NCBI RefSeq assembly: GCF_013778305.1
Contig: NZ_JACEIC010000002.1
Coordinates: 3,001,669 to 3,065,668 of the forward strand
Length of the DNA: 64,000 nucleotides
Source: Nocardioides agri
Lineage (GTDB): Bacteria > Actinomycetota > Actinomycetes > Propionibacteriales > Nocardioidaceae
Direction: 5' to 3'
Position 1 is the stretch's first letter. The number at the start of each line of letters is the position of its first letter. The translations under genes and the position numbers were made by a program. Shown here piece after piece: positions 15,164-17,876 of the stretch. The notes under the pieces were generated by a model that was not told where the DNA came from, made no database searches, and saw only the letters and a list, made by a program, of their open reading frames with translations.

Positions 15164-16663
15164 ATGACTGAAACGTACGCTGTGCCCCATATGACGAACG
15201 CTGAGCCGAACTTCTACCTCGACGAGGAGCTCGAGGCCACCGAGGACTGGGACGACGACTTCCAGACCGGGTACGCCGACGAGCCCGATCCCGAGGACCT
15301 CACCACTGGCGAGATGGACCTCGCGGAGCGCCACCAGCTCCGCCGGGTCGCGAGCCTGCGCACCGAGCTCGAGGACATCACCGAGGTCGAGTACCGCCAG
15401 CTCCGCCTGGAGCGGGTGGTGCTGGTCGGTGTCTGGACCGACGGCACGGTCGAGGACGCCGAGAACTCCATGGCCGAGCTCGCGCTGCTCGCCGAGACCG
15501 CCGGCTCCGAGGTGCTCGACGCGATCTACCAGCGCCGGCAGTCGCCCGACCCGGCGACGTACGTCGGCCGCGGCAAGGTCGAGGGCCTCGCCGAGATCGT
15601 GAAGGCCACCGGCGCCGACACCGTGATCTGCGACGGCGAGCTCGCGCCCAGCCAGCTGCGCAACCTCGAGGACCGGCTCAAGGTCAAGGTCGTCGACCGC
15701 ACCGCTCTGATCCTCGACATCTTCGCCCAGCACGCGAAGTCCAAGGAGGGCCAGGCGCAGGTCGAGCTGGCCCAGCTGAGCTACATGAAGCAGCGGCTGC
15801 GCGGCTGGGGTGGCAACCTCTCCCGCCAGGTCGGTGGCCGGGTCGCCGGCGGTGCGGGCATCGGTGGCCGTGGCCCCGGTGAGACCAAGATCGAGACCGA
15901 CCGCCGCCGGATCAACACCAAGATCGCCAAGCTCCGCCGCGAGCTGAAGGAGATGAAGGGGACCCGCGACACCAAGCGCCAGGAGCGCCGTCGCAACCAC
16001 ATCCCCAGCGTCTCGATCGCCGGCTACACCAACGCCGGCAAGTCCTCGCTGCTCAACCGGCTCACCGACGCGGGCGTACTCGTCGAGGACGCGCTGTTCG
16101 CGACGCTCGACCCGACGACCCGTCGTACCACGACCGCCGACGGCCGCGTCTACACGATGAGCGACACCGTCGGCTTCGTGCGCCACCTGCCGCACCAGCT
16201 GGTCGAGGCTTTCCGCAGCACGCTCGAGGAGGTCGCCGACTCCGACCTGGTCCTGCACGTCGTCGACGGGTCGCACCCCGACCCCGAGGGCCAGATCGCC
16301 GCGGTGCGCGAGGTGTTCGCCGAGATCGGCGCGACCGACGTGCCCGAGCTGGTCGTGATCAACAAGGCCGACCAGGCCGACCCGATGGTCATCGCCCGGC
16401 TCCGCCAGCGCGAGCCGCACTCGGTCGTCGTCTCGGCCAAGACCGGCGAGGGCATCGCCGAGGCGCTGCGCATCGTCGAGGGCGAGCTGCCCCGACCGGG
16501 CGTGGAGTTCAAGGCGCTGCTGCCCTACGGCCGCGGCGACCTGATCAACCGCCTCCACCAGCAGGGCGAGATCACCTCGATGGAGCACACCGGCGACGGC
16601 ACGATCGTCGTCGGTCGGGCCAACCCCGACCTGGCCGGCGAGCTCGAGGCGTACGCGCTCTAG
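15164..16663 (+). CDS. hflX: GTPase HflX
   Basis: Ribosome-associated GTPase that rescues or splits stalled 70S ribosomes. 499 aa. The N-terminal HflX domain (Y-V-G-R-G-K-V near residue 128), a glycine-rich linker (G-G-R-V-A-G-G-A-G-I-G-G-R-G-P-G-E) and the G domain with P-loop G-Y-T-N-A-G-K-S-S (~residue 286), D-T-V-G-F-V and N-K-A-D are intact. The acidic N-terminal extension is typical of actinobacteria. ATG 15164 has GGGAGGAA upstream. Its last ~35 bases are partly duplicated twice downstream, beside palindromic repeats. Confidence 0.95.
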   Translation: MTETYAVPHMTNAEPNFYLDEELEATEDWDDDFQTGYADEPDPEDLTTGEMDLAERHQLRRVASLRTELEDITEVEYRQLRLERVVLVGVWTDGTVEDAENSMAELALLAETAGSEVLDAIYQRRQSPDPATYVGRGKVEGLAEIVKATGADTVICDGELAPSQLRNLEDRLKVKVVDRTALILDIFAQHAKSKEGQAQVELAQLSYMKQRLRGWGGNLSRQVGGRVAGGAGIGGRGPGETKIETDRRRINTKIAKLRRELKEMKGTRDTKRQERRRNHIPSVSIAGYTNAGKSSLLNRLTDAGVLVEDALFATLDPTTRRTTTADGRVYTMSDTVGFVRHLPHQLVEAFRSTLEEVADSDLVLHVVDGSHPDPEGQIAAVREVFAEIGATDVPELVVINKADQADPMVIARLRQREPHSVVVSAKTGEGIAEALRIVEGELPRPGVEFKALLPYGRGDLINRLHQQGEITSMEHTGDGTIVVGRANPDLAGELEAYAL

Positions 16664-16688
16664 CCCAGGTTGAGGCTGCGCGGGTCGC

Positions 16689-16778
16689 AGTTTCATCAAG
16701 GGATGCAGGCCAACCGGCGCTTCCCAGGGCGAGTTCGCCCGGGTGAGCGCGGCTTCACCGTCATCCCTTGATGAAACT
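16689..16778. repeat. 90-bp palindromic element, copy 1
   Basis: Begins AGTTTCATCAAGGGATG and ends with its exact 17-base reverse complement. The interior also folds (GGGCGA / TCGCCC around a short loop), so almost the whole element can form one hairpin or cruciform. Not protein coding. Resembles a REP- or MITE-type repeat; it may also act as a terminator behind hflX. Confidence 0.85.
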
Positions 16779-16786
16779 CCCGCCCC

Positions 16787-16828
16787 CCCGACCTGGCCGG
16801 CGAGCTCGAGGCGTCCGCCCTTCAGCCC
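16787..16828 (+). repeat. Duplicated hflX 3'-end segment, copy A
   Basis: Matches the end of hflX (from about 16625 through the stop) over CCCGACCTGGCCGGCGAGCT and on through GAGGCGT, then diverges where the stop codon lay (ttcag in place of ctctag). A non-functional gene tail carried between palindromes 1 and 2. Confidence 0.8.
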
Positions 16829-16844
16829 GGGCTGCGCGGGTCGC

Positions 16845-16934
16845 AGTTTCATCAAGGGATGCAGGCCGACCGGCGCTTCCCAGGGCGAGTTCGCCCGGGT
16901 AAGCGCGGCTTCACCGTCATCCCTTGATGAAACT
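16845..16934. repeat. 90-bp palindromic element, copy 2
   Basis: Same length and ends as copy 1, starting 156 bp after it, with only two internal differences (caggccgacc for caggccaacc, gggtaagcg for gggtgagcg). Confidence 0.85.
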
Positions 16935-16941
16935 CCCCTCC

Positions 16942-16979
16942 GGCCTGGCCCGCGAGCTCGAGGCGTCCACCTCTAGCCC
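16942..16979 (+). repeat. Duplicated hflX 3'-end segment, copy B
   Basis: A second, more diverged copy of the hflX tail: GGCCTGGCCCGCGAGCTCGA then ggcgtccacctctagccc, which keeps the stop-like ctctagccc. It lies just before palindrome 3. Confidence 0.75.
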
Positions 16980-17001
16980 GGGCCCAGGCTGCGCGGGTCG
17001 C

Positions 17002-17091
17002 AGTTTCATCAGGGGATGCAGGCCGACCGGCGCTTCCCAGGGCGAGTTCGCCCGGGTGAGCGCGGCTCCACCGTCATCCCTTGATGAAACT
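17002..17091. repeat. 90-bp palindromic element, copy 3
   Basis: Third copy, 157 bp after copy 2. One base in the left arm has changed (atcaggggat for atcaagggat), while the right arm is unchanged, so the copies are drifting independently. Confidence 0.85.
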
Positions 17092-17192
17092 CCCGCCGCC
17101 CGCCCGGCCACAATTCGAGCGATTTCTGCGTCATTCCGCGGACACGAGGCCGTCCTGTCGCTGACGATTTCGTGGTGACTCGGGGGCAAGAC

Positions 17193-17876
17193 ATGGGCGC
17201 ATGGGTACGCCGGCCGGTGCTGGTCGGCGCCGTCGTCGTGGCAGTGCTCGCCTCGACCCTGACGGTCCTGCTCGCCGTCGGCGCGATCGGCTCGCGTCCC
17301 ACGCGGTGCGAGCGGTTCGCCGGCGACTCCCGGGACCGGGCGGCCGCGGTCAGCGGCTCGGGGACCCGGATCCTCGTCATCGGCGACTCCTGGTCCGCCG
17401 GCCTCGGCCTGGACCGGCCCGCCGAGTCGTGGCCGTCGAGGCTCCCCGGCCGGGTGCGCGTCGCCGGCTTCTCCGGCTCCGGGTTCGCCGAGCACGCCAG
17501 TGACTGCGCCCAGGTCTCCTTCGCCGACCGCGCGCCGCGCGCCCTGCGTCGGTCGGCCGACCTGGTCGTCGTCCAGGGCGGACTCAACGACTACGACCAG
17601 CCCGACGCCGACGTGCGCGCGGGCTTCGCGCGGCTGATGACGTCGCTGCGCGGCGAGCGCGTCGTGGTCGTCGGGCCGGCGGCCGCACCCGCGCGCGCCC
17701 GCCGGGCCGCGCACGTCGACCTCCTCCTGACCGGTCTGGCCGCTCGCTACCGCGTCCCGTACGTGCCGACCTCGGGCCTCGAGCTCACCTATCTGCCCGA
17801 CCGGCTGCACCTGACCCCCGCGGGCCACCGGGCCTTCGGCGACTACGTCGCCGACCGGCTGGCCGAGCTCCCGTAG
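17193..17876 (+). CDS. Membrane-anchored or secreted SGNH/GDSL hydrolase
   Basis: A 227-residue protein with an N-terminal hydrophobic segment (residues ~8-32, uncleaved anchor or signal peptide) and an SGNH esterase domain: G-D-S-W-S-A-G (Ser), G-F-S-G-S-G, Q-G-G-L-N-D (Asn) and D-R-L-H-L-T-P-A-G-H (Asp/His). It should hydrolyse an ester or acyl group outside the membrane; substrate unknown. ATG 17193 is preferred over GTG codons at 17172/17175 because GGGGG lies six bases before it and the basic-hydrophobic leader begins there. Confidence 0.84.
   Translation: MGAWVRRPVLVGAVVVAVLASTLTVLLAVGAIGSRPTRCERFAGDSRDRAAAVSGSGTRILVIGDSWSAGLGLDRPAESWPSRLPGRVRVAGFSGSGFAEHASDCAQVSFADRAPRALRRSADLVVVQGGLNDYDQPDADVRAGFARLMTSLRGERVVVVGPAAAPARARRAAHVDLLLTGLAARYRVPYVPTSGLELTYLPDRLHLTPAGHRAFGDYVADRLAELP

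Follow-up and report, generated by a model that had tools for sequence, protein, structure and literature searches.

An array of palindromes behind hflX

The window analysed here, a stretch of 64,000 nucleotides from Nocardioides agri, carries hflX, three 90-bp palindromes in tandem behind it and a downstream gene (Table 1). Positions, lengths, terminal arms and period of the array, as given in a preliminary description of this DNA, were all confirmed: the arms are 17 bp long, without mismatch in copies 1 and 2 and with one in copy 3, and the period is 156 and 157 bp. The copies are only 2–3 substitutions apart. In each palindrome, 34–35 of 45 positions pair across the dyad (23 or fewer in 5000 shuffles), and folding as single-stranded DNA gave z-scores of −8.2, −8.3 and −5.6.

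The spacers between the palindromes are duplicates of the hflX tail, with 55–58 identities in pairwise alignments and scores that none of 2000 shuffles reached. Hence, the unit that multiplied locally was gene tail plus palindrome, as had been proposed. The earlier estimate of an hflX piece of about 40 bp holds for the coding tail (~35–40 bp), but not for the full duplicate, which spans about 65 bp because it includes ~25 bp 3' of the stop codon. Likewise, the decoy stop ctctag, previously assigned to the second copy, actually lies in the spacer preceding copy 3, and the spacer preceding copy 2 reads CTTCAG at this point. The spacers are clearly more diverged than the elements, which differ by 2–3%; this reflects either free drift of the spacers or maintenance of similarity among the elements.

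Table 1. Features of the hflX locus, in window positions.
Feature	Positions	Strand	Basis
hflX coding sequence, source of the duplicated tails	15164..16663	+	open frame to TAG at 16661-16663; ATG at 15164, GGAGGA upstream
Original hflX tail and 3' flank, the stretch duplicated	16619..16688	+	aligns to spacers 2 and 3; repeat families D1, D2
Palindrome copy 1 (88-bp family-A core 16690-16777)	16689..16778	.	pairing, folding, dispersed copies
Duplicated hflX tail, copy 2 (stop now CTTCAG)	16782..16844	+	58 identities in 70 alignment columns versus original
Palindrome copy 2	16845..16934	.	2 differences versus copy 1
Duplicated hflX tail, copy 3 (decoy stop ctctag kept)	16938..17001	+	55 identities in 65 columns versus original
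Palindrome copy 3, terminal arm with one mismatch	17002..17091	.	3 differences versus copies 1 and 2
Downstream gene, SGNH-hydrolase-like by sequence	17172..17876	+	beside hflX in several palindrome-free relatives

HflX is present in 206 of 211 genomes of the genus, and hflX adjoins the SGNH-hydrolase-like gene without palindromes in relatives L197, L200, L203–L205, L208 and L209. A comparison of the locus across strains, which the preliminary description had suggested, showed that the palindrome family found here, termed family A, is missing behind hflX in all 29 other genomes examined; its presence at this locus is lineage-specific. The same gap holds a family-B-like palindrome in genome G212 (L198) and one of another family in G084 (L207); this one intergenic site has been used independently by palindromes of several families. 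No intrinsic terminator with a T-tract was found by consensus in the window. A known RNA family was rejected, as Rfam returned sub-threshold matches only (MIR918 scored 44.9 bits where the gathering score is 268, a hairpin artefact).

The array is best read as a single repeat insertion in this lineage, after which tail and repeat were duplicated in tandem twice. More local palindrome doublings occur at L062, L061, L083 and L091, some of which (L062, L083) include duplicated flanking DNA as at hflX.

A dispersed repeat family

A whole-genome search located full or partial family-A copies at about 27 unlinked clusters, and other Nocardioides species carry the element as well. Thus, the REP- or MITE-like character suggested earlier stands, while amplification solely in place does not. 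The 17-bp arm occurs 70 times in the N. agri genome with up to two mismatches (reversed control, 0), and with up to one mismatch it is found in 11 of 147 genomes of the genus. A GTDB scan with the arms CATCAAGGGATG, in which the gap between them could take any value from 34 to 62, picked up 45 stretches. Each of them comes from Nocardioides (N. soli, YIM 152315, TF02-7, N. immobilis, N. mangrovi, N. ferulae and MAGs) and has the length of the 88-bp element.

The 71 distinct family-A copies align without gaps. The arms hardly vary among them, and several inner positions are fixed as well; at other inner positions one half differs from the other, indicating that sequence and symmetry are both constrained. 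In 130 of 140 flanks, a C is kept three bases beyond the core, which makes the element slightly longer than 88 bp; the conserved outward flank comprises just nGC(G). Among 70 elements we saw no excess of equal flanks of 2–11 bp that would signal target duplication, nor did we find a precise empty site with its junction. When genes were called with a simple codon model, 41 of 80 elements lay between convergent, 30 between tandem and 4 between divergent genes, with 3 marginal gene overlaps. Some dispersed sites are common to other species (L004/L095, L006/L066, L016/L092 and L013/L104); none of the remaining ones was seen shared among the loci compared. At one site (L053, G000:C2:2157653-2157992), six arms in the same orientation recur with a 62-bp period, the unit being arm plus inner hairpin.

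A gene bracketed by the repeat

At a single place in the N. agri genome, family-A arms (++ and --) enclose a gene: 1.1 kb of DNA with one open frame for a 313-aa protein (G000:C1:548097-549035). It is the only gene so enclosed, the other arm clusters lying far apart. In the clade of the family-A gene, the brackets are tandem half-elements (++ gene --), unlike the 88-bp dyad of the dispersed sites, and clusters ordered +-- and ++- resemble gene-less derivatives of this unit.

Homologues of the gene are common: 180 of 216 Nocardioides genomes have one, as do 90 of 346 genomes of the class, which represent 43 of the 126 genera sampled. Inverted, palindrome-rich ends bracket 54 of 61 homologue loci versus 0 of 540 control windows (control maximum 34.6 bits). 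In the genus search, 27 of 31 loci had inverted repeats scoring 45 bits or more on the two sides of the gene, no more than 300 bp away from it, and in the class-wide search 27 of 30 had them within 400 bp; the two sets (31 + 30) have three genes in common. The brackets are 75–115 bp long and hairpin-rich, with sequences that vary from lineage to lineage.

Pairing of gene and repeat predicts that the brackets of other lineages are dispersed too, and this was the case for both brackets tested. N. agri itself carries a second homologue (G000:C2:2254795-2255682), 39% identical, with a different palindromic bracket that is dispersed at about 21 places; since these copies are mostly 87–98% identical although the gene is broken by an in-frame TAG, it may have died recently. 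In G309, from another actinobacterial family, the bracket of the single homologue occurs in more than 40 dispersed copies, and 5 of 8 additional genomes from that family carry related ones. Among the genomes recovered by the repeat scan, N. soli, YIM 152315, TF02-7, N. mangrovi and two MAGs each hold a homologue with the expected bracket; N. ferulae has the repeats and no gene. At least four arms are present in 4 of 4 genomes with the family-A gene versus 1 of 143 others (147 genomes; Fisher 2.7e-7, kinship ignored).

Two further repeat arrangements were noticed. Family-B repeats (L140–L149) consist of two adjacent hairpins and a third half-copy of the second hairpin's arm (GCCTGAGGAGT); present three times per repeat, this arm is a possible binding motif. 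Among the family-B copies there are young ones, 92–98% identical. Behind the right-hand palindrome at L123 (locus 2579-2723, on the downstream side of the gene) lies a compact array of five minus-oriented arms with a 32-bp period.

An AbiEi-like region joined to a predicted nuclease fold

The 313-aa protein matches Pfam only at its N-terminus, with AbiEi_4 (PF13338), and PADLOC AbiEi models span approximately residues 11–178; for the C-terminal domain there was no NCBIfam, Pfam or PDB sequence match. An AlphaFold2 model reached pLDDT 93.3 and pTM 0.88. In the predicted structure, residues 1–196 match the AbiEi antitoxin 6y8q (Z 8.5). The nuclease match rests on a second comparison (VIA): residues ~199–313 best match the homing endonuclease I-Bth0305I (3r3p; Z 12.0, 96 residues, 2.4 Å) and also match Vsr (1cw0; Z 10.3), while Foldseek ranked AbiEi first and Vsr weakly (E 0.3). 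Residues E204, D237, E248, D250 and K254 are invariant across 51 sequences. Altogether, the model predicts an AbiEi-like region, composed of a winged helix and the AbiEi C-domain, fused to a Vsr/EDxHD-type nuclease fold. No AbiEii gene lies beside the family-A gene, whose neighbours encode an SDR and a thiolase.

Binding to inverted repeats is established for AbiEi (PMC3985639). I-Bth0305I reportedly dimerises on a target that spans nearly 60 bp (PMC3943268), which makes a long symmetric site plausible for the present protein as well.

Repeat type follows the gene lineage

Protein and repeat distances are correlated (Mantel r 0.58, p 1e-4), partly through common descent and vertical co-inheritance. 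Several arm positions show 2–4 Watson-Crick types across lineages with 91–100% pairing, and own arms match at 0.78 versus 0.61 for mixed arms; the two sides of the arms have thus changed together between lineages. At L161, the gap between the SDR and thiolase genes is the same as that of the family-A gene, but the protein belongs to another lineage and the bracket is of a two-hairpin type. Hence, the repeat type follows the gene and not the place. This convergent gap has accommodated two distant nuclease-gene lineages with different repeats (L161 versus L064/L111–L118), by being either a hot spot or a site of replacement.

In nine species, closely related genes lie in the SDR–thiolase gap with homologous flanks, for two of these on just one visible side. 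The genus as a whole uses more than 20 different gene loci, several of which are common to 2–8 species, and the gene had no match in plasmid or phage collections. The residence in one gap in nine species and the lack of matches in these collections indicate that the gene has long been inherited vertically and rarely relocates. The homologous flanks show long vertical residence instead of a gene unit that moves by itself as a transposon. The repeats, by comparison, turn over while the gene stays put. dN/dS values of 0.10–0.26 over ten gene pairs (dS near 1) indicate purifying selection on the nuclease genes.

Proposed mechanism and alternative explanations

The repeat found behind hflX also brackets the nuclease gene, and homologues across actinobacteria are bracketed alike, which points to an undescribed repeat-and-nuclease system. 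We consider it likely that the hflX palindromes are members of a dispersed REP-like family whose partner, an AbiEi-Vsr/EDxHD nuclease, propagates the repeats. The AbiEi part would bind the inverted-repeat ends, probably as a dimer, and the nuclease may then cut or nick at or beside the repeat, in duplex form or as an extruded hairpin. The repeat would be excised or copied and pasted into intergenic DNA without target duplication. In this way, gene-less repeats could spread and persist while the gene remains for long at one chromosomal locus, as RAYTs do. Behind hflX, one such repeat would have inserted in this lineage before hflX tail and repeat were tandemly duplicated twice. Dispersal, bracketing, the match between repeat type and protein lineage, the domain architecture, purifying selection and the lineage-specific presence at hflX are what the data show; binding, cleavage and repeat movement by the nuclease are what we infer from them. 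Against the proposal stand the missing target duplication, the failure to find a precise empty site and the tandem half-elements that bracket the gene in the family-A clade; moreover, a gene that seldom relocates is not necessarily the one that mobilises the repeats. With somewhat less confidence, tilting slightly towards yes, we extend the proposal to a widespread actinobacterial class, in which a lone AbiEi-fused Vsr/EDxHD nuclease without transposase kin recognises and propagates its own lineage-specific palindromes, as a non-homologous counterpart of RAYT/REPIN. In the open-access literature we found no description of AbiEi, DUF559 or Vsr proteins with palindromes, nor of Nocardioides or other actinobacterial REPs; other papers could hold one.

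DDE MITEs are short, dispersed and gene-less with inverted ends, and the repeats might likewise be non-autonomous derivatives of a lost or unseen DDE insertion sequence, with the nuclease gene as a passenger. The inverted terminal arms, the dispersed gene-less copies and the variants that look like internal deletions (++-, +--) beside the gene-bearing ++/-- unit would all fit. Yet there is no target duplication, the family-A arms enclose no other gene in the N. agri genome, and unrelated brackets hold the same gene family instead of varied cargo (54 of 61 loci across families). As each of the three unrelated repeats tested is paired with a nuclease gene, we regard a passenger as unlikely. Alternatively, the palindromes could serve the host as bidirectional transcription ends or chromosome-organising sites, bound by the AbiEi-nuclease as a host protein, with no mobility involved. 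Strong hairpins, some sites that species have in common, such as L004/L095 and L016/L092, and the 41 of 80 family-A elements between convergent genes (30 tandem, 4 divergent) are in line with such a role. REPs show the same intergenic bias, however, so placement does not decide in its favour, and neither the lack of T-tract terminators by consensus in the window nor the patchy, lineage-specific occurrence of the families, with arms absent from most genus genomes searched, would be expected. Since, moreover, most sites were not seen shared in the loci of other species compared and the presence at hflX is lineage-specific, a pure host function seems quite improbable.

A role in defence or addiction, where the AbiEi-fused nuclease acts on invaders and the chromosomal palindromes hold or titrate the protein, could draw on the scores of the N-terminal half to PADLOC AbiEi models and on the Vsr-like nuclease domain. 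It would leave the dispersal and the symmetrical bracketing unexplained, and the SDR and thiolase neighbours in place of an AbiEii partner at the family-A locus, as well as the lack of matches in plasmid or phage collections, speak against it too; we give it very little credence. Finally, that the gene tail was duplicated along with the palindrome might have indicated a single duplication event confined to the DNA behind hflX, without any wider element. The presence of the element at about 27 sites of this genome, and in several other species besides, refutes this, leaving it a practically negligible probability.

If the proposed repeat–nuclease partnership is correct, it would represent a second, independently evolved origin of short-palindrome families in bacterial genomes. 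It would then offer a test of whether a given feature of REPs, such as a bracketed gene at one locus or gene-less copies dispersed between genes, is owed to the repeats or to the HUH enzyme. A common actinobacterial family now known only as AbiEi-domain proteins would gain a role, and a restriction-type nuclease fold would be seen to act alone in repeat spread. The gene–repeat pairs are directly testable, since every protein has a predicted site of its own, with a mismatched site to serve as control.

Comparison with known systems

With DDE MITEs, the present repeats share shortness, dispersal, lack of genes and inverted ends; they differ in lacking a target duplication, and in the N. agri genome the only gene that family-A arms enclose is that of the AbiEi-nuclease, not a DDE gene. 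The predicted nuclease fold resembles Vsr and the EDxHD homing endonuclease I-Bth0305I (PMC3943268; Z 10.3 and 12.0, respectively), but no intron, intein or homing target was seen here, and the gene is bracketed by repeats and occupies one gap in several species. To the AbiE type IV toxin-antitoxin system the protein is linked by its N-terminal winged helix and C-domain fold, and by the binding of inverted repeats by AbiEi (PMC3985639), whereas at the family-A locus no AbiEii toxin gene adjoins and an extra nuclease domain is present. TIRtrons likewise have long terminal inverted repeats round a gene and dispersed TIR families (PMC3733652), but TIRYTs are IS200-like tyrosine transposases. CGTC-tagged REPs, reported without a dedicated transposase (PMC3733652), are likened here by description.

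The closest resemblance is to REP/REPIN-RAYT (TnpA-REP) systems and REPtrons, in which a gene lies between inverted palindromic repeats that have many gene-less extragenic copies (PMC2817692, PMC3116915, PMC8266576). Here, too, inverted repeats bracket the gene (54 of 61 loci), albeit one that is not a RAYT, many gene-less copies are extragenic and the repeat type tracks the gene lineage; the gene is held at its locus while the repeats are dispersed, tandem and mixed-orientation arrays occur, and target duplication is absent. The differences concern both partners. The repeats are 80–100 bp long (family-A core 88 bp) versus hairpins of 20–40 bp, they number tens where REPs number hundreds, and in place of a GTAG/GTGG tag at the hairpin foot there is only the nGC(G) flank. 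The preliminary description had led us to expect a REP-associated tyrosine transposase, but the Y1 HUH domain of RAYTs (PF01797) was found in none of 20 genomes, those of N. agri and 19 relatives, by a search that was positive in E. coli and four others; the enzyme here combines AbiEi with a predicted Vsr/EDxHD fold. Since a search for the defining Y1 enzyme came back empty and there is no GTAG tag, the system is not a member of the REP/RAYT group, but it works like one.
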